Both the position numbers and the translations under genes were made by a program. A DNA stretch of 52,741 nucleotides from positions 1 through 52,741 of IMG/VR virus record IMGVR_UViG_3300031825_000389; one strand, given 5' to 3'. Source of the DNA: a virus. The notes under the pieces were generated by a model. It saw nothing but the letters and a program-made list of their open reading frames with translations. It did no database searches and was not told the DNA's origin. Below are positions 9,987-51,136 of this stretch, in pieces; the stretch's first letter is position 1, and every line of letters starts with the position of its first letter.

Positions 9987-10033
9987 TTTGGTGGGCGCAC
10001 TAGGGCTCGAACCTAGGACCCGCTGATTAAGAG
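9987..10033. repeat. attL: attL: 47-bp att core, partial tRNA-Lys copy
   Basis: These bases are identical to 51059-51105. They contain the 3' part of tRNA-Lys, from the anticodon loop to the CCA end, on the minus strand. The 5' half of the tRNA is absent here, so this copy is not functional. Confidence 0.9.
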
Positions 10034-10052: not shown

Positions 10053-10171
10053 AGGAAGCAGCAGGAAGCGTCAAGAGTCTGCATCTGAACGCACTTGACG
10101 CTTGGTACCCGCTGATTTTAAGAACGCGAGGCGGCACGAAATTGCGCTGCCCTGCTTCCTATATGCTTCCT
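10053..10171. promoter_or_regulatory. Integrase arm-type binding sites, left arm
   Basis: AGGAAGC at 10053-10059 and 10063-10069, and its complement GCTTCCT at 10154-10160 and 10165-10171, occur as pairs spaced 10-11 bp, one helical turn. The same word recurs four times beside attR (50986-51032). The last pair lies just before the int start and could also autoregulate int. Confidence 0.65.
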
Positions 10172-10180
10172 GAGATCGGC

Positions 10181-11416
10181 ATGCCCACCATCAAGTTCAC
10201 GAAGGCCTCCGTCGCCCAGCTGCGGCTGTCAGAGGGTGAGAAGGAAAAGCTGTACTTCGATTCGGCCATGCCCGGCTTTGGCCTCCGGCTCCAGGGTGGT
10301 GCCGCCCGGTGGATCGCGCAATATCGCGTCAACGGGGTGACGAAGCGCACAACCCTCGGCCGCCGGGAGACCCTCGATCTAGACAAGGCGCGCGCAGCGG
10401 CGAAGCAGGTGCTGAGCAAGGCGGGCCTCGGCGTCGACACTCAGGAGGAGAAGAAGAAGGCCCGGCGCGCAGCACAGCTTACCCTGGGTTCCGTAGTCGA
10501 CACCTACCTGGAGGCCTATGAGCCGACCGTGCGGCCGAACACTTTCCGGAACGCAAAGCTCCACCTGAAGACCCACCTCAAGCCCCTGCACGGCATGGCG
10601 CTGGACCAGATCGGCCACGGCGACATCTCAGCGCGCCTCACGGCCCTGCGCAAGGAGATCGGCACCTCGACCGGCGACCACACCCGCGTCGCCCTGTCCG
10701 GCCTCTACGGCTGGGCGATCAGCGAGGGGTTGTTGAACGACAATCCCGTCGTGCGCACCCGATCCAGCCGCCTCGTAAAGGCCAAGGCCGGCGAGAGCCC
10801 GAGCGGCGGCCGGGCGCGCACGCTCTCCGCGGCAGAGCTCGGCGAAGTGTGGCGGGCCTGCCAGGATGACGACTTCGGCCGGATCGTGCGGCTCCTCATA
10901 CTCACCCTGCAGCGGCGTGAGGAAATCGCCGCCCTTGATTGGAGCGAGGTCGACCTCGTCAAGGGCATCATCTCCCTGCCGCCGGCGCGCACCAAGAATG
11001 GGCGCGAGCACCTGGTGCCGATCTCCACCGCGGCGGCGCAGATCCTCGCCGGCGTGGAGCACCGCGACGGGCGCGACTTCCTGTTCGGCGAGGGAAAGGG
11101 ATCGTTCTCCGGCTTCTCGAAGGCGAAGCGCATGCTGGAAGAGCGGGTGCACAAGGCGCGCATCAAGGCCGACCCCGCCGCCAAGCCCATGCCGCACTGG
11201 ACGCTGCACGACCTGCGGCGCACCGGCGCGACCATGATGAACGAGAGCCCTCCCCTCGGCCTCGGGATGCAGCCGCACATCGTCGAGGCGATCCTGAACC
11301 ACGTGAGCGGCACCCGGGCCGGCGTGGCCGGCATCTACAACCGGGCGCTCTACCTCGCCGAGAAGACGGCGGCGCTGGAGGCGTGGGGGAATTTCGTCGT
11401 CAGCGAGGCACCGTGA
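10181..11416 (+). CDS. int: Tyrosine recombinase integrase
   Basis: This 411-residue integrase is of the DUF4102-type N-terminal class (MPTIKFTKASVAQLRLSEGEKEKLYFDSAMPGFGLRL). The ATG at 10181 is preferred to an upstream TTG at 10142 because it matches the family N-terminus and the extra codons would overlap the arm sites. Catalytic residues are in place: Arg in LTLQRREEIAALDW (about 245), HDLRR (His343, Arg346), LNH (His374) and the tyrosine nucleophile in GIYNRALY (Tyr386). It catalyses site-specific recombination between attP and the tRNA-Lys attB and lies 148 bp from attL. A weak ribosome site suggests low expression; the LexA-type promoter at 9878-9915 could feed it. Confidence 0.95.
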   Translation: MPTIKFTKASVAQLRLSEGEKEKLYFDSAMPGFGLRLQGGAARWIAQYRVNGVTKRTTLGRRETLDLDKARAAAKQVLSKAGLGVDTQEEKKKARRAAQLTLGSVVDTYLEAYEPTVRPNTFRNAKLHLKTHLKPLHGMALDQIGHGDISARLTALRKEIGTSTGDHTRVALSGLYGWAISEGLLNDNPVVRTRSSRLVKAKAGESPSGGRARTLSAAELGEVWRACQDDDFGRIVRLLILTLQRREEIAALDWSEVDLVKGIISLPPARTKNGREHLVPISTAAAQILAGVEHRDGRDFLFGEGKGSFSGFSKAKRMLEERVHKARIKADPAAKPMPHWTLHDLRRTGATMMNESPPLGLGMQPHIVEAILNHVSGTRAGVAGIYNRALYLAEKTAALEAWGNFVVSEAP

Positions 11417-11768: not shown

Positions 11769-12065
11769 TCAGGGGCTGTAGCCAAGGCCTGCCAGCAGGT
11801 CGTCCTTCAGCTTCTCGGACTTCTGCCACGCGTCGCTCACGGCATAGTGCAGGCGCTCCAGCTGGCCGGGATCGATGATGTGGCAGTGCTCCACGCCGCC
11901 CACGAGATCGGGCTTCTCCCCGGCGATCTTTCCCTCGAAAATGCCGGAGAGCAGGTCCCAGACGACGCCGGCCGCGTTCGCCGCGTCATAGAACCTGCCT
12001 TCGAGGTCATGGATGTGCTTGAGCCGATCCTCGGCCGAGAGGCCGTTCTTGCGGGGCGGGCTCAT
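11769..12065 (-). CDS. Hypothetical protein, arc-ant operon
   Basis: This is a 98-residue protein from ATG 12065 that overlaps the preceding stop (ATGA). The sequence is helical: GLSAEDRLKHIHDLEGRFYDAANAAGVVWDLLSGIFEG, then LERLHYAVSDAWQKSEKLKDDLLAGLG. It resembles the small helical proteins common in alphaproteobacterial prophages, but I can give no function. It is the fourth gene from the Arc-like repressor. Confidence 0.6.
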   Translation of the reverse strand: MSPPRKNGLSAEDRLKHIHDLEGRFYDAANAAGVVWDLLSGIFEGKIAGEKPDLVGGVEHCHIIDPGQLERLHYAVSDAWQKSEKLKDDLLAGLGYSP

Positions 12066-12355
12066 GCGGCACCGCCTTCCTGATGGCGGGTCACGGCAAT
12101 GGCGAGGCGCTCGCGGGCATACCGCTCCGCCCGCTTCGCCTTCTCCAGCGCGTCGAACGGCGCCTTGGTAGCCACCATCATCCGTGTCCAGTCGAGAGTG
12201 TCCCGCTCGACGTGCTCGATGCCGTGCTTGTTCTTCCATGCAGTGTAGGCGCGGCTCAGGTGGATCTGTGCCTCCTTCCGCCGCAGCCCGGCCTCGTGCG
12301 CCTTGATGGCCTGCTCGGCGATAGCGAGGATCGAGGAGAGGTCAGGGATGTCCAT
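12062..12355 (-). CDS. Hypothetical helical protein, arc-ant operon
   Basis: This is a 97-residue protein from ATG 12355, overlapping the ant stop (TGATG). It is highly charged and probably coiled-coil (AIAEQAIKAHEAGLRRKEAQIHLSRAYTAWKNKHG and ALEKAKRAERYARERLAIAVTRHQE). No family is recognised. Coupling to the antirepressor suggests coordinated production. Confidence 0.6.
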   Translation of the reverse strand: MDIPDLSSILAIAEQAIKAHEAGLRRKEAQIHLSRAYTAWKNKHGIEHVERDTLDWTRMMVATKAPFDALEKAKRAERYARERLAIAVTRHQEGGAA

Positions 12356-13209
12356 CAGGCCCTCCCAGCGAGGAAGCTGCGGAGGGTCTCCACCATGGAC
12401 AACGGCCAGCGGACCTGCTGGTACATGCCCATGTTGTTGCTGAAGGCGCCGGCATCGAGCGTGCCGCCGGCATCCTTCCCTTTCTGCGTCAGGGCCCACC
12501 GGCTCTTGCCCTTGTGGGTCGGCTCCTGCATCTGGAAGCCGAGCTGCTGCAGGTGCAGGTTCACCGTCTGCGCCGAGAGGCCGTTCAGCCGCCGGCCGAT
12601 CTCGGTGGCGTTGAGCAGTATGTCGTCGGCGGTGTCGTGCAGGCGGGGAATGCCGAGGGCTTCCAGGTGGTCGAAGCCCGTGAGCCGGGTGGTGGCGAGG
12701 TTCGCAGCGATGAGGGCGCGGGAACCCTCGAATCCGGCCATCTTCATGAGCTTGAGGTTGTGCGACATGGTCAGGCGCACCTCTTTCGCGCTCGCGTCGC
12801 CAGCAGGCGGCGGGGGCGGCAGCACGACGCCGGACTTCACCATGAAGTAGGTGTCCTCCAGCTTCGAGAACACCTCCCACGCCTTCGGGCTCTCCAGCAG
12901 CTTCGCGTGGCGCAGGGCACCGGCCTCGGTCCAGAGGATGAGGCTGGGAGCGCGTGCCGCGACTACCCGGCTATTTTCCGGGTAGTCCTTGAAGGCCTTC
13001 AGCGCAGCGCCGGTCAGCTTGTGGAAGTGGTAGCCTTCCTCGAACTTGTCCGGGTTCTTGCGCTGTCCGTCGTAGATGTTGTCCGGCGTGACCCCATAGG
13101 CCTTCGCCAGCTGCTCCGTCGTCATGACGGGCTTGCCGCGGTACATGATGCGCGGATTGTCGGGGCCTTCCCCGTCACCGCCTTCGGTGGTATTAACAAG
13201 ACCGTTCAT
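12355..13209 (-). CDS. ant: ORF6N-domain phage antirepressor
   Basis: This is a 284-residue protein. Residues 20-105 are an ORF6N domain (IMYRGKPVMTTEQLAKAYGVTPDNIYDGQRKNPDKFEEGYHFHKLTGAALKAF, later LWTEAGALRHAKLLESPKAWEVFSKLEDTY). The remainder includes a second winged-helix-like part (LNATEIGRRLNGLSAQTVNLHLQQLGFQ and RWALTQKGK), usual for Ant/Rha-class proteins. Such antirepressors bind and inactivate the phage CI repressor. ATG 13209 is 6 nt after GAGGGA; ATG 13215, which overlaps the arc stop, is the alternative. Arc-Ant coupling mirrors P22 immI. Confidence 0.8.
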   Translation of the reverse strand: MNGLVNTTEGGDGEGPDNPRIMYRGKPVMTTEQLAKAYGVTPDNIYDGQRKNPDKFEEGYHFHKLTGAALKAFKDYPENSRVVAARAPSLILWTEAGALRHAKLLESPKAWEVFSKLEDTYFMVKSGVVLPPPPPAGDASAKEVRLTMSHNLKLMKMAGFEGSRALIAANLATTRLTGFDHLEALGIPRLHDTADDILLNATEIGRRLNGLSAQTVNLHLQQLGFQMQEPTHKGKSRWALTQKGKDAGGTLDAGAFSNNMGMYQQVRWPLSMVETLRSFLAGRA

Positions 13210-13211
13210 CG

Positions 13212-13586
13212 TCATTCCCTCGCAGGATGATTGTGATCTCCAGGAGCGACGACGGGGCCTGCCAGGGTTTGACCGTCGTCGCTCTTCTCGTTTCCGGCCA
13301 TGGTAATGGCCGAGCCGCCATCGGTGGCAGGTATCTCACCCGCGTCCGCGGGTTTCTCACCCACGGCCCGCGTACCGGTACAGATAGCTGTTTGACTTTC
13401 CGGAAATCCGGAAAAGTCTTCCGGAATTCGAGAAACTGCGGCGCTTGCGCGATCCATCCGCTCCCGGACAGACCTGATAATCTCGCTGTTGATCGAGGCC
13501 CCGTTGCGCTCGGCTTCCGCGTCCACCCACCGTTTCAGGTCGGGCGGCAGGCGAAGCATGAAGCGGGGCCATGTAGCTTGCGTCAT
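13212..13586 (-). CDS. arc: Arc-like ribbon-helix-helix repressor
   Basis: This is a 124-residue protein. Residues 6-50 (WPRFMLRLPPDLKRWVDAEAERNGASINSEIIRSVRERMD) match the Arc/Mnt fold: beta strand FMLRLPP, helix A, the GASINSEI turn and helix B. The C-terminal 70 residues are Ser/Thr/Gly-rich and probably disordered. Arc represses the ant promoter in P22. Here it precedes ant with a 4-bp overlap and faces a second Arc-like gene across three palindromes (13594-13672). Confidence 0.85.
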   Translation of the reverse strand: MTQATWPRFMLRLPPDLKRWVDAEAERNGASINSEIIRSVRERMDRASAAVSRIPEDFSGFPESQTAICTGTRAVGEKPADAGEIPATDGGSAITMAGNEKSDDGQTLAGPVVAPGDHNHPARE

Positions 13587-13593
13587 AAACCTC

Positions 13594-13672
13594 CTTCCAC
13601 CATTTTGGTGTCGTTAACCCTAACTGACACTGTTTTAGTGTCAATCTATTTGTGACACCGTTTTGGTGCTAT
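13594..13672. promoter_or_regulatory. Array of three RHH operators between divergent arc-like genes
   Basis: Three related palindromes occupy the 95-bp divergent gap: CACCATTTTGGTGTCG, TGACACTGTTTTAGTGTCA and TGACACCGTTTTGGTGCT, with consensus TGACACY-GTTTT-RGTGTCA. Their place between two Arc-like genes identifies them as Arc/Mnt-type operators covering both promoters. Confidence 0.75.
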
Positions 13673-13681
13673 GCACTGTAC

Positions 13682-14116
13682 ATGGCAACGAAACCAGCGA
13701 AGAAGCCCGCCGCCCGGGCCCCGACAAAATTCGCCAAGGCAGCGAAGCAGGACGATTTCGTCCGCATCACCCTGAGGCTTCCGCCCGACCTGCACGAAGT
13801 CCTTGTTAAATCAGCGGGCGCGAGTTCGTTGAACGCTGAGATTGTTTCGCGCATAGAGCAGTCATTTTCGAGCCAGTCGCTAGAGCATCGCCTCGAACGG
13901 TTTGAGGACAACGAAAATCGACTGATGTTCTTGGTTGCGGACCTTCGCAAGTCTCAACTAACTCTTGAAAACCAAGCGCAGCAATTGGCTGATCTTGCAA
14001 CTCGGTATGCAGCAGAACGTGATGGAGAGGCCGAGAGACGACGAGAATTAGAGGATCAGCTGAAGCTCTTGCTCGACGTTCTGCGTTTTAACTCGCAGCA
14101 AGATCCCGGCACTTAA
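13682..14116 (+). CDS. Arc/Mnt-like RHH repressor with C-terminal coiled coil
   Basis: This is a 144-residue protein from ATG 13682. The N-terminus is basic (MATKPAKKPAARAPTKFAKAAKQ). The RHH spans residues 25-60 (FVRITLRLPPDLHEVLVKSAGASSLNAEIVSRIEQSF). Residues 65-140 form a long coiled coil (ENRLMFLVADLRKSQLTLENQAQQLADLATRYAAERDGEAERRRELEDQLKLLL), a tetramerisation layout like Mnt. In P22, Mnt is made divergently from arc-ant and keeps ant off during lysogeny; position and architecture suggest the same job here. The start has no strong ribosome site, so it may be translated from a short leader. Confidence 0.75.
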   Translation: MATKPAKKPAARAPTKFAKAAKQDDFVRITLRLPPDLHEVLVKSAGASSLNAEIVSRIEQSFSSQSLEHRLERFEDNENRLMFLVADLRKSQLTLENQAQQLADLATRYAAERDGEAERRRELEDQLKLLLDVLRFNSQQDPGT

Positions 14117-14286
14117 CGCTCCCGGGCGACGGCCTCCAGGCCCTTCTTGATCAGGAACCGGATCGTCTCGGCCTGCGTCGGCTTCCGGTGCGCGTAGCGC
14201 GCATCCTCGACCTCGGCGACCTCGGCTTCCGTCATCATGATCGTCACGCGCTTTTCGCGGGCCGGACTGGCGCGGGCTTCCTGCAC
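14113..14286 (-). CDS. Small ribbon-helix-helix protein
   Basis: This is a 57-residue protein from GTG 14286 with the excellent ribosome site GAGGAGG. It reads KRVTIMMTEAEVAEVEDARYAHRKPTQAETIRFLIKKGLEAVA, a typical RHH (beta strand RVTIMMT, then two helices, the second RKPTQAETIRFLIKKGL). It is divergent from the RHH-like 14402 gene across an array of GGCACAA repeats. Its 3' end overlaps the 13682-14116 gene by a few bases, tail to tail. Confidence 0.7.
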   Translation of the reverse strand: MQEARASPAREKRVTIMMTEAEVAEVEDARYAHRKPTQAETIRFLIKKGLEAVARER

Positions 14287-14304
14287 TGCTTTGCCTCCTC
14301 AAAT

Positions 14305-14381
14305 CGGCACAAGTTGTGCCGGTAAGGATCAGTTAACCGGCACAAGAAGCGCCGGTCAAGCCCGATTGTGCCGCTTGTGCC
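14305..14381. promoter_or_regulatory. Operator array of GGCACAA half-sites
   Basis: The gap between divergent RHH genes contains a perfect palindrome CGGCACAA-G-TTGTGCCG (14305-14321), a CCGGCACAAGAAGCGCCGG pair (14337-14355) and two direct TTGTGCC copies (14366-14372, 14375-14381). Clusters of this kind are usual for RHH autoregulators. Confidence 0.7.
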
Positions 14382-14401
14382 TATTTTGTATGGTGCGCAG
14401 C

Positions 14402-14803
14402 ATGAGCGACGAACCCAAAGACCAGCGCATTCCAATCATGATGTCCGCCTCCGAGGTGAAGGCCATCGATGATTGGAGCTTTGAGAACCGTATCCGTACG
14501 CGAGCGGAGGCAGTTAGGCGTCTGTGCCAAATAGGTCTGATGACGAGTTCGGCTGCAAAGGATATCGCTCACCGCAGCGGCGACCTCAGCCAACTCCTTT
14601 ACATACTTGATGATGCAGAGCGCCTTCAAAGCAAGGAACATCTGATGGAGCTAAAACATCATATTCTTTCACTTATTCAATTAAATATTGGCATATTATC
14701 ATCTACCGTAATCCCGACTAAGTCGGACGACGATCTTACCGTTTCAATCAGCTTTCTCCGTCAATGGCTTAAGGGCAGAATTGAAATATCTAACTCGGAA
14801 TGA
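14402..14803 (+). CDS. RHH-like N-terminal domain protein
   Basis: This is a 133-residue protein from ATG 14402. Residues 8-48 (QRIPIMMSASEVKAIDDWSFENRIRTRAEAVRRLCQIGLM) match the RHH-like proteins frequent in rhizobial genomes. The C-terminal half is hydrophobic helix (LMELKHHILSLIQLNIGILSSTV) and lower in GC. It is probably a DNA-binding autoregulator acting at the GGCACAA array. Its partner 14113-14286 lacks the C-terminal extension. Confidence 0.65.
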   Translation: MSDEPKDQRIPIMMSASEVKAIDDWSFENRIRTRAEAVRRLCQIGLMTSSAAKDIAHRSGDLSQLLYILDDAERLQSKEHLMELKHHILSLIQLNIGILSSTVIPTKSDDDLTVSISFLRQWLKGRIEISNSE

Positions 14804-15119
14804 TCAAAAGCCGCCCCTCCGGAGAGAGCGAAGCTGATCGGAAGCCGCCTACATGGACAAGCTCGGCCCTCGGGGCGAGGATCTGTGCCTCTGGCGATCC
14901 ATCATCGATGTGAGTGGAGTATGCCCTGAAAAGGCCGGCGGGCTTCTTTGCTGCCTGCTTGTCTTGAGGCGTGGGCTTGGGCGTAGGTGGCCCCGATGCT
15001 ACCCTGCGTAGCGCTGCGTTGAATTGCTCCTCGGACTCGTCGCAGCCGAGGCCGCGGGCTGCGTCAACAAACTGGCTAGCTTGACTTTTCCGTTGATCCG
15101 GACTTCCTGTTTTCAACAT
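14790..15119 (-). CDS. Hypothetical protein of a phage-associated small family
   Basis: This is a 109-residue protein from ATG 15119. The stretch SQASQFVDAARGLGCDESEEQFNAALRRVA resembles the KSQSDKFKxAARxLxxDxDExxFxxxLRKxA pattern seen in many rhizobial prophages; I know no function for it. A Pro/Lys-rich linker follows. Its start codon shares CATG with the start of the divergent DUF3800 gene, so the two promoters must lie inside each other's coding regions. Confidence 0.6.
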   Translation of the reverse strand: MLKTGSPDQRKSQASQFVDAARGLGCDESEEQFNAALRRVASGPPTPKPTPQDKQAAKKPAGLFRAYSTHIDDGSPEAQILAPRAELVHVGGFRSASLSPEGRLLIIPS

Positions 15120-16011
15120 GGCTAAAGCGCCTCTAGACCAACCTGACTACAAATACGTCGCCTATATCGACGAGGCCGGTGATCCCGGCCTAAACCGCGT
15201 TCGCCCCATCGACCCAGTCGGGGGCACTGAGTGGATGGTAGTCGGCGCATCCCTCATCCGGAAAGAGAATGAGGCAAATCCGCCCAAATGGGTTGGTGGT
15301 ATGCTGCATGACATCGGCATTCGACAGAGGCCTGATTTGCATTTCAGAGACTTAAGTCCAACCAGACAGACGCGAATATGTAGCTTGATGGCGGCGCTTC
15401 CAGCCGTTTATTTCGTAGTGGCCTCAAATAAAAAGAATATGAGGAACTACAAAAATGAGCGCGCAGAAGCTAAGTCATATTCTCAGCAGTGGTTTTATAA
15501 TTGGCTCTGCCGCATACTTATTGAGAGAATTACGGATTTTGTCCTGCGTGATGCGCTACGCCATCATGGTCGCGCAGAAAATGTAAAATTCGAATTCTCG
15601 CAGCGCGGCGGCCACCGATATAGCCAGACCCAGGCATACCACTGGCTACTAAAGACCCAAGCCAGAACGGAAAATATGGTTCTGAAGAGAAGAATACCAA
15701 AATGGGAAGTTATGGATTATCGACTGGTGCATGTATATCAGCACAAGGAGCGCGCCGGCCTTCAACTTGCGGACGCAGTGTCTAGCGCATTTTACACTGC
15801 TATTGATAATTTGGATACAGGACCATGTTTTTATGATCCATCTAAAGCACTAAAGCCCCGGATCGCGTTCGAAAAGACAGAATTTGGAGATAAAAAAACA
15901 GACGATTACGGCGTTGTGTTACAGCCGACCCCAGCGTGCGACGTAGATATAAGCGAAGACCAGAAACATATATTCAAATATTACGGATACTATTTCAAAA
16001 AAAAGAGGTAG
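15118..16011 (+). CDS. DUF3800 family protein
   Basis: This is a 297-residue protein. Diagnostic DUF3800 motifs are YVAYIDEAGDPG (residues 12-24) near the N-terminus, and HVYQHKERAGLQLADAVSSAF (about 205-225). The family has an RNase H-like fold, with the Asp/Glu of YIDEAG and the D of LQLADxVS proposed as metal ligands. DUF3800 genes are common in prophage accessory loci and beside defence systems, and a nuclease-based anti-phage or exclusion role is plausible. GC content is clearly lower than that of neighbours, suggesting separate acquisition. No partner gene is adjacent. Confidence 0.8.
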   Translation: MAKAPLDQPDYKYVAYIDEAGDPGLNRVRPIDPVGGTEWMVVGASLIRKENEANPPKWVGGMLHDIGIRQRPDLHFRDLSPTRQTRICSLMAALPAVYFVVASNKKNMRNYKNERAEAKSYSQQWFYNWLCRILIERITDFVLRDALRHHGRAENVKFEFSQRGGHRYSQTQAYHWLLKTQARTENMVLKRRIPKWEVMDYRLVHVYQHKERAGLQLADAVSSAFYTAIDNLDTGPCFYDPSKALKPRIAFEKTEFGDKKTDDYGVVLQPTPACDVDISEDQKHIFKYYGYYFKKKR

Positions 16012-40897: not shown

Positions 40898-41146
40898 ATG
40901 ATCATCACTTGGGACGAACCGAAGCGCCTCGCGAACCTTGCCAAGCACGGCATGGATTTCGCGGACCTCGACCTTGGGTTCTTCCTCTCGTCTCTCGTGA
41001 TCCCGGCGAAGCTGGGCAGGCACATGGCCATCGGCCGGAACGCCAACGGGACGATCGTCGTGGTGTTCGCCACGCTCGGCACCGAAGGCGTCTCGATCAT
41101 CAGCATGCGCCCCGCCAGCGCCAAGGAACGGAGGCTTCTCGGATGA
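40898..41146 (+). CDS. brnT: BrnT-family ribonuclease toxin
   Basis: This is an 82-residue protein from ATG 40898. IITWDEPKRLANLAKHGMDFADLDLGFFLSSLVIPAKLGRHMAIGRNANGTIVVVFATLGTEGVSIISMRPASAKERRLL matches BrnT: WDxxKxxxNxxKHGxxF, then the C-terminal ISxRxAxxxERR, with RelE-like catalytic Arg residues. The family normally cleaves RNA and is blocked by BrnA. The central region departs from the usual RxxxG-x2-DG pattern, so activity is unproven. Confidence 0.8.
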   Translation: MIITWDEPKRLANLAKHGMDFADLDLGFFLSSLVIPAKLGRHMAIGRNANGTIVVVFATLGTEGVSIISMRPASAKERRLLG

Positions 41147-41445
41147 CGAAGCGCAAGGCGAATGAATTCGAGCCCGGGAAGGGCTACACCAAGGCGGATT
41201 GGGACGCAGTGTCCGACAGCCCGGAAATCACTCCCGCCAACATGAAGAAGGCCAAGCCGTTCGCGGACGCCTTCCCTGCCCTCGCCGAAAAGGCTCGACA
41301 GGCACGCGGCCCCCAGAAGACGCCCACCAAGGTGCCCGTCTCCATCCGGCTGAGCCCCGAGGTGGTAGAGCACTTCAAGGCAGGCGGGCCAGGGTGGCAG
41401 GCCAGGATAGATGAAGCGCTGCGCAAGGTGGTGGGCGGTCGGTGA
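41143..41445 (+). CDS. brnA: BrnA-family antitoxin
   Basis: This is a 100-residue protein from ATG 41143, overlapping the toxin stop (ATGA). The N-terminal part wraps the toxin (FEPGKGYTKADWDAVSDSPEITPANMKKAKPFADAFPALAEK), and the C-terminal RHH binds DNA (KVPVSIRLSPEVVEHFKAGGPGWQARIDEALRKVV). The VSIRLSPEVVExFKAxGxGWQxRIxEALRK motif is diagnostic. It presumably represses via the repeats at 40841-40895. Confidence 0.9.
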   Translation: MTKRKANEFEPGKGYTKADWDAVSDSPEITPANMKKAKPFADAFPALAEKARQARGPQKTPTKVPVSIRLSPEVVEHFKAGGPGWQARIDEALRKVVGGR

Positions 41446-43119: not shown

Positions 43120-44162
43120 GCGGCCTCCGCGCGGCGCTTTTGCCATTCGTCAGTGATGGTTCGGGGGAGCTGGCAGGACGCATCGCCGGGCGGGAAGCCC
43201 CATGCCGTCATGGACCACTTGCCGGCCATCCAAATCTCAAACAGGCTCTCGGGGTCAGGGAAACCGCTTGGCCAGCCAAGGGGACGTGCTGGCGGCCCTC
43301 CGACTGAGGATGGCCCCACCGAGCCAGGCGGCGGGTGGTATCCCTTCCGCTCCGCGATTTGCCGGCACCGGTTGCGCCACGTGGCCGACCAATCGAGCTT
43401 GGCGCCCTTCTCGCTCCCCACCCCGGCCCAGTAATCCACGAACTCCGCGCCATGCCGGGCGATGTCGGCCGCCGGGATGCCCACCGACACGGCGAAAGCT
43501 CGGTCGGTGTCGTCCGGCTTCCAGGCTGGATCGATCCTCGTGGCCCGCTTCTTCGGCTTGGCGGCCCTGGCCGGCGAAGGTGGCTCGGCCCCGACCTCCG
43601 AATCGACCTCTGGCCGCGGGACGGCGTTGCCGTCCTGTCTAACCTCTTTTCTTTCTTCCCTCCTCCATCCTCCATCCTCCATCTGCGGAGGAATTTCCCC
43701 ACCGGTTCCGAACTTGTTCCCCACCGGTTCCCCACTCGTCGGTACCGGGCCTGCATCATCGGCGTTTAGTTCCCCACCGGTTCCGAACTCGTTCCCCACC
43801 GTGGCATCCGTGAGACCGACGTATTTGCGAACCAGTTCCGGCTTGGGGTGGATCGCCTTCGGCTTCTTTGGGCGCTGCCACCGAGTGAAGTTCCGAACCG
43901 CTCCATAGCTGCGACCATCAACCTCGAACCGCATGAGAAACCGGTTATCCACCAGGGCGGCCATAAGCGGATCGATTGAGGCGCTGATGGCCGGCAGAAT
44001 GCGGGCCTTCAGGGTGAGCGGCTTCCATTCGAAGACGCCTTCGTCGTCCGCCTCGGTCCAAATGCCGATCAGGAGCACCGCAGCGAGCGGGGCTTCCACG
44101 GTCAGCACCATGAAGTTCTCATCAGAGAAGAGGCCGGGATGAGCCGAGCGGATGCGCGACAT
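43116..44162 (-). CDS. Phage replication initiation-type protein
   Basis: This is a 348-residue protein from ATG 44162. The N-terminus (MSRIRSAHPGLFSDENFMVLTVEAPLAAVLLIGIWTEADDEGVFEWKPLTLKARILP, then RRFEVDGRSYGAVRNFTRWQRPKKPKAIHP) is the winged-helix part of a replication protein family found upstream of DnaB or DnaC loaders in many phages. A linker with repeated GNEFGTGGE-type words follows (encoded by the iterons 43693-43803), then a DnaD/DnaT-like C-terminus (WSATWRNRCRQIAER). It likely recruits DnaB to the origin, similar in layout to lambda O. Confidence 0.8.
   Translation of the reverse strand: MSRIRSAHPGLFSDENFMVLTVEAPLAAVLLIGIWTEADDEGVFEWKPLTLKARILPAISASIDPLMAALVDNRFLMRFEVDGRSYGAVRNFTRWQRPKKPKAIHPKPELVRKYVGLTDATVGNEFGTGGELNADDAGPVPTSGEPVGNKFGTGGEIPPQMEDGGWRREERKEVRQDGNAVPRPEVDSEVGAEPPSPARAAKPKKRATRIDPAWKPDDTDRAFAVSVGIPAADIARHGAEFVDYWAGVGSEKGAKLDWSATWRNRCRQIAERKGYHPPPGSVGPSSVGGPPARPLGWPSGFPDPESLFEIWMAGKWSMTAWGFPPGDASCQLPRTITDEWQKRRAEAA
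43639..43803. repeat. Iteron-like repeats and polypyrimidine tract inside the replication gene (possible origin)
   Basis: GTTCCCCACC recurs at about 43694, 43716, 43727, 43770 and 43791, and a 32-bp block beginning TTCCCCACCGGTTCCGAACT occurs twice (about 43694 and 43771) with one mismatch. A 40-bp polypyrimidine tract (43639-43679) flanks them. Iterons within the initiator gene are the lambda ori arrangement, so this is a candidate prophage origin. Confidence 0.5.
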
Positions 44163-46205: not shown

Positions 46206-47035
46206 GCTGCCTCCGCCTTTCGGGCGCGGCCTTTTTTTTTGAACCACGTGACCGCCAGCGCCTTCCAGAACGGCACCCGGTGCGCGGCGGCGAACAACTT
46301 GGCATCCTGTTCCGCCGCCGGACCCGCCGCGACGATGGCGGCGGCGAGCACCTCAGGGTCCATCTCGCCGGCATAGTCCGGGTCCGTGAGCAGCAGCTCG
46401 CCCGCCTTGATGTCGTTCGCCGTCAGCGGCGCCCGGCCCGACTTCACCAGCGCTTCGAGGATCTCGCGCGCACGCTTGGCGCCGCGCCGGGACACCAGTG
46501 CCTTGATGCTGGAGATGGCCACCGTCTCGCCGGCATGGAAGGCTCGGCCGGGAGGCCCGCGGAGGATGCGCACCCCTGCCCGGCTGCACACCTGCTCCAC
46601 CGTGAGCGCGTCTTCGTCACCTGCCGTGACGGCCGCGTGGTGGAGCTGCGTCGCCGAGACGGCGAGGCGGTCGCGGTTGTGCCCAATGAAGGCGGCGGCC
46701 CGTTGGGCGATGTCCGCTGCCTCCACGATCATCACCGGGATCTTGTCGATGTCCGGATGGCAAGCCGCCGCGATAGCAGTGTGCTGCCCGTCGATCAGCT
46801 CCAAACCGGCTTCGGTCAGCACCGCCACCGGCGGCTTGTATCGAGGCCAGCTCCATCCAGCCACCATCTTGGCAATCAGCCGCCGCGAGGCATCCGACAG
46901 GTCGCGCTGGTAGCGCGGGTCCACCAGCAACGTGCTCGGCGGCACCCACTCGAAGATCGGCTTCGCGCTGACCTCGGGTGCCGGCGATACGTGGGGCAGG
47001 TCGATCGCGGTGATGGGGCGGCGCGGGTCAGTCAC
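46202..47035 (-). CDS. ParB-like nuclease-domain protein (early operon)
   Basis: This is a 277-residue protein from GTG 47035, overlapping the upstream stop (GTGA). The ParB-type core spans residues 25-110: FEWVPPSTLLVDPRYQRDLSDASRRLI, PPVAVLTEAGLELIDGQHTAIAAACHPDIDKIPVMIVEA, with a DGQHT box. The C-terminus is helical and basic (WFKKKGRARKAEAA). It lacks the usual ParB HTH partner context and ParA. Relatives in phages may modify or nick DNA or regulate transcription. It differs clearly from the 16456 copy. Confidence 0.75.
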   Translation of the reverse strand: MTDPRRPITAIDLPHVSPAPEVSAKPIFEWVPPSTLLVDPRYQRDLSDASRRLIAKMVAGWSWPRYKPPVAVLTEAGLELIDGQHTAIAAACHPDIDKIPVMIVEAADIAQRAAAFIGHNRDRLAVSATQLHHAAVTAGDEDALTVEQVCSRAGVRILRGPPGRAFHAGETVAISSIKALVSRRGAKRAREILEALVKSGRAPLTANDIKAGELLLTDPDYAGEMDPEVLAAAIVAAGPAAEQDAKLFAAAHRVPFWKALAVTWFKKKGRARKAEAA

Positions 47036-47421
47036 GGCCGCTCGCCCTCCGGCCACAGGTCGGGGCGAAGCTGGGATCGCGTCACGGCACCGTCGGTCGC
47101 GCGTTCGATGGCCATGGCGCTTTCGGCCGAGACAGGAAGCTGGAAGTTCAGCATTTGCGAAATCGCTTGCTGCGCACACCCTGCGGCTTCCGCGAGCCGG
47201 CTCTGGGCGCCAAAGAGATTGATGGCTCGCAGGATGTCCGGATGCTGGTTCTCCGGAGGCTTTCTAGGACGGCTGGCGGCGGCATTACCTGCGTCGGACA
47301 GGGCGGAAATCTCAACATCACCGCGCTGCGCAGTCTCCACCCGGTCGATCGCCGCCAGCAGCGCCTCGCCCGACAGCCCAGCTTTCACAAGTTCGCGGAT
47401 CATCTGGACGATGGCGCTCAT
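47032..47421 (-). CDS. YdaS/Cro-like DNA-binding protein (second of tandem pair)
   Basis: This is a 129-residue protein from ATG 47421, overlapping the first gene's stop. The N-terminal 60 residues are low complexity; residues 62-125 (DILRAINLFGAQSRLAEAAGCAQQAISQMLNFQLPVSAESAMAIERATDGAVTRSQLRPDLWP) match the YdaS fold: RLAxAxGCxQQAISQM-x6-VSAExAxxIExATxGxVTRxxLRPDLWP. Early phage regulator, CII- or Cro-like by position. Confidence 0.75.
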   Translation of the reverse strand: MSAIVQMIRELVKAGLSGEALLAAIDRVETAQRGDVEISALSDAGNAAASRPRKPPENQHPDILRAINLFGAQSRLAEAAGCAQQAISQMLNFQLPVSAESAMAIERATDGAVTRSQLRPDLWPEGERP

Positions 47422-47743: not shown

Positions 47744-48433
47744 ATGACAGATGAAATTAGCACCATCGGCGCCCGCATACGGCAGGCGCGCACCGCCCTC
47801 GGCCTCACTCAACAGGGGCTCGCGGATAAGCTGAACGTCACTGTGCAGTCCGTATCTCAATGGGAGACGGGGCGGACACGGCCCAACTATGACCGCATAA
47901 ACCTATTGGAGGAGGTTCTTGGCTTACAATATGGTTGGCTAATCTCTGGCGAAGGAGAAATGACGTTAGATCCACCGAAAAAGCATGACGGCTACGAGGA
48001 ATTTAGAAATCGCTTAGCCCGTGAATTGGAATGGGATGAAAAACTTGCGCACTATGGCCAAATGAGATTGGAAAGCGTCCCGTACGAATTGGGCGATGGA
48101 GCGATTTTAGCCACTCATAATGCGGAGCGTGATTTATTTGCCTTAACAATCAAAGACAGCGCAAATTCTCCACTATTTGAGATTGGCGATATAGTAATTG
48201 GAGATACTGGAACCGGCGTTCGTCCAGGAGACATGGTGTTCGTAAAATTGCGAAAAAGAGATGATGTTATATTTCGGCAAATTAAGGCATTTCGGCGCGA
48301 AGAAAATGACAAACTTTTCGCCGAACTCCGGCCTCTGAACTCGGACTATGAGACGGAGACGATAAACCTTACAGATGATGATGACAGGGTTATAGGCGTA
48401 ATGGTGGAGCACCGACGATTCAGGCGGCGCTAG
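47744..48433 (+). CDS. cI: CI-like repressor with S24 domain lacking the catalytic Lys
   Basis: This is a 229-residue protein from ATG 47744; there is no clear ribosome site, so it may be leaderless. HTH_3 spans residues 8-62 (IGARIRQARTALGLTQQGLADKLNVTVQSVSQWETGRTRPN). The C-terminal S24-type fold is at about 115-225 (LTIKDSANSPLFEIGDIVIGDTGTGVRPGDMVFVKLRKRDDVIFRQIKAF). The Ser aligns with lambda CI Ser149 (KDSA), but the Lys position is Arg/Gln (IFRQI), so self-cleavage is unlikely. GC is low. It maintains lysogeny through the flanking operators. Confidence 0.85.
   Translation: MTDEISTIGARIRQARTALGLTQQGLADKLNVTVQSVSQWETGRTRPNYDRINLLEEVLGLQYGWLISGEGEMTLDPPKKHDGYEEFRNRLARELEWDEKLAHYGQMRLESVPYELGDGAILATHNAERDLFALTIKDSANSPLFEIGDIVIGDTGTGVRPGDMVFVKLRKRDDVIFRQIKAFRREENDKLFAELRPLNSDYETETINLTDDDDRVIGVMVEHRRFRRR

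Positions 48434-51058: not shown

Positions 51059-51136
<78 letters not shown>

Follow-up and report, generated by a model that had tools for sequence, protein, structure and literature searches.

A candidate immI-like secondary immunity switch with an ORF6N antirepressor in an alphaproteobacterial prophage

The stretch of DNA analysed here (the window) is IMG/VR virus record IMGVR_UViG_3300031825_000389, positions 1-52,741, and holds a 41-kb prophage in which two divergent ribbon-helix-helix (RHH) genes, arcL and mntL, face each other across a short region of operator-like repeats, with the antirepressor gene ant coupled to arcL. We read this module as a secondary immunity switch, like immI of phage P22, of a siphovirus-type prophage integrated at tRNA-Lys, in which MntL and ArcL would control Ant, and Ant would favour lytic growth; we give this reading a probability of about 0.68. 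The genes, their domains and overlap, the predicted operators, the conservation of these operators with the RHH strand, and a separate CI/Cro region were all read from the sequence. The module comprises the following features (operators carry no strand):

12355..13215, minus strand: ant, ORF6N antirepressor, 286 aa (PF10543, E 4.7e-15; PHROG anti-repressor, 1e-30)
13212..13586, minus strand: arcL, Arc-type RHH repressor, 124 aa (Arc, PF03869, E 6.8e-8)
13595..13613: predicted operator A, TTCCACCATTTTGGTGTCG, three mismatches (motif match under a looser consensus; centre ATTTT, not GTTTT)
13625..13643: predicted operator B, TGACACTGTTTTAGTGTCA, perfect 7-5-7 palindrome (motif match)
13653..13671: predicted operator C, TGACACCGTTTTGGTGCTA, two mismatches, just upstream of the mntL start (motif match)
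13682..14116, plus strand: mntL, divergent Arc/Mnt-type RHH gene, 144 aa, with an R-I-T-L-R strand (homology, profile, AlphaFold model)

The arcL-ant operon, mntL and their operator-like sites

ArcL scored 32.7 bits against Arc (cut-off 20.4) and Ant 56.1 bits against ORF6N (Pfam cut-off 27.8), the two genes overlap by 4 bp (ATGA), and the ArcL profile matched Arc structures (~3e-6). The coupling by overlap of an Arc-like repressor to an ORF6N antirepressor, proposed in a preliminary description of this DNA, is thus upheld. The RHH domain of ArcL (residues 5-48) is 63% identical to an RHH protein of surveyed locus L002 and 44% identical to p52 of Paracoccus phage vB_PkoS_Pkon1 (Pkon1), and its tail of ~75 residues, which has a lower G+C content at third codon positions (GC3), has no counterpart in these two homologues. 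MntL on its own matched Arc weakly (E 8e-4; 19.6 bits, just below the cut-off), and its family profile matched P22 Mnt (1mnt, E 3e-6), Arc and AmrZ in the PDB. MntL is 61% identical to Pkon1 p51 over 46 aa. The AlphaFold model of MntL places two RHH helices before an unbroken 77-residue helix (64-140, pLDDT ~98) that fits a coiled coil, in agreement with the proposal of a divergent Arc-like gene with a coiled coil in the mnt position. This model had no match in Foldseek, a search that is uninformative for an RHH monomer with a long helix. Simple codon-usage calling left out arcL and mntL, as well as rhh4 of a second RHH pair described below; these genes are supported by homology instead. MntL and some of its homologues (L179, L180, L257) have a two-residue deletion in the turn that joins their RHH helices.

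Three operator-like repeats lie within the 95-bp gap between arcL and mntL. They had been described as three TGACACY-GTTTT-RGTGTCA palindromes, a form that operator B takes exactly, whereas C departs from it by two mismatches and A has three against a slightly looser consensus (centre ATTTT). With up to three mismatches, TGACACYNNTTTRGTGTCA has four matches in the window (B on both strands, A and C) against 0.11 expected, and the chance expectation for such palindromes in the whole window is 0.01 to 0.11. Operator B overlaps a minus-strand TTGACA, a possible -35 box for arcL-ant. Corresponding repeats lie between the RHH pair of Pkon1. In locus L180, three tandem operator copies (5 strand-wise matches against 0.01 expected) precede an MntL homologue that has the R-I-T-L-R strand and two-residue gap of MntL and no Arc homologue beside it. 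The L002 protein, by comparison, has a different strand (K-F-M-L-R) and different sites.

The association of strand and operator was then quantified across 87 RHH proteins whose loci had been chosen without regard to the operator, a site being counted at a match of at least 10 of 12 upstream. A site stood upstream of 4 of 5 proteins with an R-x-T-x-R strand and of 1 of 82 others (Fisher p ~1e-5, a value that overstates independence, because the four come from only three genomes, the window included). The single other protein with a site was ArcL, which shares its sites with the MntL of the same pair. Furthermore, a scan of 2.9 million viral contigs with the motif alone returned 65 stretches, in which 25 sites fell within 300 bp of an RHH gene (random mean 4.3, maximum 10). 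Many of these stretches were near-copies, and thinning left nine loci; the R-x-T-x-R strand was present in eight of them, and in four (L220, L237, L242, L284) an antirepressor gene of BRO type, of P22_AR type or resembling Ant of Acinetobacter phage TCUAN1 lay near the RHH pair. Because the motif adjoins homologous RHH genes in Pkon1 and L180, and because a scan with the motif alone recovers divergent RHH pairs, the predicted operators are, on this comparative sequence evidence, not a product of chance. L220 and its near-identical contigs belong to another phage group; their RHH pair, in which each partner has an R-x-T-x-R strand, shares the TGACAC operator and is flanked by BRO- and KilAC-type antirepressor genes.

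We infer which protein binds which site, and the direction of regulation, as follows. In the lysogen, MntL, and probably ArcL too, would occupy the three TGACACY-N5-RGTGTCA sites and keep the arcL-ant promoter off. Were repression lost, for instance because the phage enters a naive cell or MntL levels drop, one coupled message would yield both ArcL and Ant. ArcL would then curb the burst by autorepression, like Arc in P22, while Ant would bind CI and so favour lytic growth or induction.

Several results weigh against this reading. The MntL homologue of L179 is close and shares the strand, yet the locus is without such operators. A sigma-70 consensus promoter scan found none, and no exact LexA-type site was present in the module or the CI-Cro interval, nor was there any excess of such sites, so that no trigger of derepression was seen. 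Ant has no Pfam match to P22_AR and no BLASTP similarity to P22 Ant, and its predicted structure, of low confidence (mean pLDDT 69), matched no fold in the PDB.

The comparison with P22 immI (mnt-arc-sar-ant) was mixed. In P22 (PMC11016777), Mnt acts as the repressor of arc and ant, Arc keeps mnt and ant in check, and Ant binds C2. Both systems have divergent Mnt- and Arc-type RHH genes, an operon in which arc precedes ant, a shared control region of similar length (95 bp in the window, 90 bp in P22) and a CI/Cro region elsewhere; in the window the predicted operators lie in this shared region, with a motif conserved alongside RHH homologues. However, the Ant of the window is an ORF6N protein without detectable homology to the P22_AR-type Ant of P22, and the window has three copies of one operator motif where the P22 annotation gives separate Arc and Mnt operators. 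In addition, the 4-bp overlap of arcL and ant leaves no room for sar, which sits in the P22 arc-ant gap (antisense RNA elsewhere was not sought), ArcL has a tail that P22 Arc does not, and the CI of the window appears to be without a catalytic Lys. Of the proposal that the module reproduces the logic of P22 immI, the layout, the placing of the operators and the separate CI/Cro region therefore stand, whereas the Ant family, the operator scheme and the position of sar do not carry over. The module likely works like P22 immI; it is not, as a whole, a homologue of it.

A second RHH pair beside mntL

Directly abutting the first pair is a second divergent RHH pair (14113-14803) of a different RHH subfamily, which the preliminary description did not include:

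14113..14286, minus strand: rhh3, arc-position RHH (PHROG 4738, transcriptional repressor, 1.1e-5)
14302..14381, no strand: predicted operator cluster of rhh3/rhh4, copies of CGGCACAA/TTGTGCCG (GGCACAA sites; repeats)
14402..14803, plus strand: rhh4, divergent mnt-position RHH (84% identical to an RHH protein of L199 over 44 aa)

mntL and rhh3 converge, and the stop of rhh3 overlaps the end of mntL. In Azospirillum phage Cd, the arc-position RHH is 34% identical to rhh3, and the mnt-position RHH is 56% identical to rhh4 over 27 aa. A related GCACAA motif occurs near related RHH pairs in five loci (L199, L200, L201, L204, L207). We suggest that rhh3/rhh4 would be a switch of this kind too, with other operators, its antirepressor here lost or shared. 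Beside the second pair, at 15118-16011, lies a gene of low GC3 for a DUF3800 protein, possibly a cargo or defence gene.

The stacking of the two pairs probably reflects a recombination patchwork without regulatory meaning, in which rhh3/rhh4 is an orphan that lost its own antirepressor; this explanation is compatible with the reading of arcL, mntL and ant given above. Relatives of rhh3/rhh4 are divergent pairs beside Rha/KilAC antirepressors (L200, L202, L206, L210) or, in phage Cd, a pair adjoining a full-length Ant homologue, whereas rhh3/rhh4 has no antirepressor of its own. Consistent with a patchwork, no other surveyed locus had two complete RHH pairs in tandem, and base composition changes sharply along the stretch; the retention of open reading frames and multi-copy operators in both pairs speaks against it. 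Alternatively, the two pairs might form a double lock, in which a leftward transcript from the rhh3 promoter would run antisense through mntL into arcL-ant, so that release of the second lock would silence mntL and feed ant. If true, this would join two signals, each with an independent operator (TGACAC and GGCACAA). We consider it unlikely: a functioning double lock is conceivable yet unsupported, and modular recombination is the simplest reading of the stacking.

The CI/Cro region and the target of Ant

The primary immunity region, at 47.0-48.4 kb, is separate from both RHH pairs:

47032..47421, minus strand: Cro/YdaS-like regulator (PF15943, 5e-18; P22_Cro, 4e-7)
47744..48433, plus strand: CI-like repressor with HTH_3 and S24-like domains (PF01381, 6e-15; PF00717, 2e-8)

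With the residues generally regarded as catalytic in S24 repressors as reference, we aligned CI to P22 C2, at an identity of only 26% that makes column placement only moderately certain. CI keeps the S24 Ser, has Arg at the position of the catalytic Lys and shows neither an Ala-Gly nor a Cys-Gly hinge. The catalytic Lys is likewise missing from its relative in L199. By this alignment CI is probably not RecA-cleavable, and antirepression is a plausible route of induction because CI appears to lack both the catalytic Lys and an Ala-Gly hinge. For the Gifsy prophages it is established that antirepressors induce where the repressor is not cleaved, in GfoR/GfoA with an antirepressor encoded outside the immunity region (PMC3121763); those antirepressors are small and LexA-controlled, and RHH control goes unmentioned in the abstract of that paper. 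The antirepressor role of the ORF6N domain in general is supported by the P1-type Ant of phage RCS47, whose record annotation gives it as an antirepressor demonstrated by experiment; it shares the ORF6N domain with the Ant of the window, but has a KilAC C-terminal domain and lies beside c1/coi with no RHH pair annotated next to it.

Ant most likely targets the CI at 47744-48433. It is less probable, though still a serious contender, that Ant does not act on this CI and works in trans on repressors that co-resident or superinfecting phages encode, or else on a different early regulator, the RHH pair and operators being as described. Divergent RHH pairs elsewhere adjoin varied cargo, not antirepressors alone, and ORF6N N-domains are joined to widely differing C-terminal parts, both of which would suit such a role, whereas the apparently broken catalytic pair of the prophage's own CI makes a cognate antirepressor useful. 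That arcL-ant is a toxin-antitoxin-like addiction unit, in which the RHH protein would be an antitoxin-like repressor and Ant a DNA-binding protein that is toxic, is very improbable: repressor/antirepressor pairs did emerge in a toxin-antitoxin search and some Ant-domain proteins are toxic (PMC2701414), but the authors of that study themselves judged a regulatory role likelier, no toxin family in Pfam or PHROGs matches Ant, and the gene order, the divergent second RHH gene and the separate CI/Cro region fit an immunity switch.

Source element, related cassettes and distribution

The prophage is bracketed by a 47-bp perfect direct repeat found by repeat search. Its boundaries and the genes around ant are:

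9987..10033, no strand: attL, left copy of the 47-bp repeat (repeat search)
10163..11416, plus strand: tyrosine integrase (Pfam Phage_integrase, 2.8e-15; PHROG 1, 1.3e-57)
11769..12065, minus strand: small gene downstream of ant, no Pfam match (open reading frame and codon-usage call)
12062..12355, minus strand: small conserved companion gene touching the end of ant (phmmer matches)
51059..51105, no strand: attR, 3' end of tRNA-Lys (tRNA 51061-51136; repeat search and overlap with the tRNA-Lys gene)

Between the repeats lie the integrase, late genes reading leftward, replication genes and the CI/Cro region. By gene content and flanks, the element, with host DNA on its sides, is an integrated prophage related to Azospirillum phage Cd. 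The earlier label of siphophage holds in that the head-tail gene set, including a tape measure and a J-like fibre, fits a siphovirus (the search for a contractile sheath was not exhaustive), and needs amending in that the element is integrated. The alphaproteobacterial host assignment, read from sequence similarity, holds because the flanking host TctA shares ~75% identity with proteins of Shinella and Rhizobium, and because the terminase has its nearest match in phage Cd (44%). Two further observations were made elsewhere in the element: GTTCC-type direct repeats within the replication initiation gene (43694-43801) are possible iterons or an origin, and at 40898-41445 a BrnT-type toxin gene and the small gene after it, both running against the direction of the late genes, are a possible BrnTA toxin-antitoxin pair.

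Neither the ORF6N/RHH combination nor an alphaproteobacterial setting for such an RHH pair, both put forward as departures from P22, turned out to be new. Pkon1 (p51-p54) shares with the window the RHH pair lineage, gene order, operator motif in three places and downstream companion gene; its antirepressor is of KilA-N type, its locus as fetched has no second RHH pair, and the words "antirepressor" and "KilA" are absent from the main text of the paper describing it. Homologues of the companion gene adjoin RHH cassettes with other cargo in Pkon1, L200 and L253 (phmmer E 2e-11, 4e-20 and 1.6e-14). At the gp43 locus of phage Cd, as in the window, a full-length Ant homologue (35% identity, with the C-terminal half in common) stands with an overlapping and a divergent RHH gene, in a phage with a related terminase. 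These RHH genes, directly upstream of gp43, are unannotated and were found by translation (L004:5201-5909); they resemble the second pair of the window, not arcL/mntL, and the operators differ. TCUAN1 has a divergent Arc-like gene, an RHH gene and an ORF6N Ant in one cassette; it differs in an extra gene between RHH and ant, a BrnA-like arc-position RHH and other operators.

Scans of viral or genome contigs with Ant as a single sequence found no relatives, a two-sequence Ant profile found two loci, and a ten-sequence ORF6N profile found 160. Among ~174 loci chosen for an ORF6N protein, not all of them independent, 31 had same-strand and divergent RHH genes within 2.5 kb upstream of the ORF6N gene, and by hand count the arc-position gene lay within 100 bp of ant in ~11 of these 31. 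Named examples of these loci come from TCUAN1, Giesbergeria, Acidovorax, Yersinia pekkanenii and Xenorhabdus. Repressor-antirepressor pairs have been noted in phages generally (PMC2701414), as has immI variability in P22-like phages (PMC8022706); a short search of open papers found no description of the ORF6N and RHH/RHH combination.

This kind of switch is widespread, and what the present module adds is the operator-strand rule, the swapping of cassettes and the unusual stacking of two pairs. The P22 immI design appears as a swappable cassette, in which operator-bearing divergent RHH pairs go with ORF6N, KilA-N, BRO-type or P22_AR-type antirepressors, and sometimes with none. An apparently non-cleavable CI alongside an antirepressor agrees with the idea that, in many prophages, induction does not come about through self-cleavage of the repressor. 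Moreover, the correlation between the R-x-T-x-R strand and the TGACAC half-site offers a testable recognition rule for phage RHH repressors, which would help to predict the operators and induction circuits of prophages that lack annotation.
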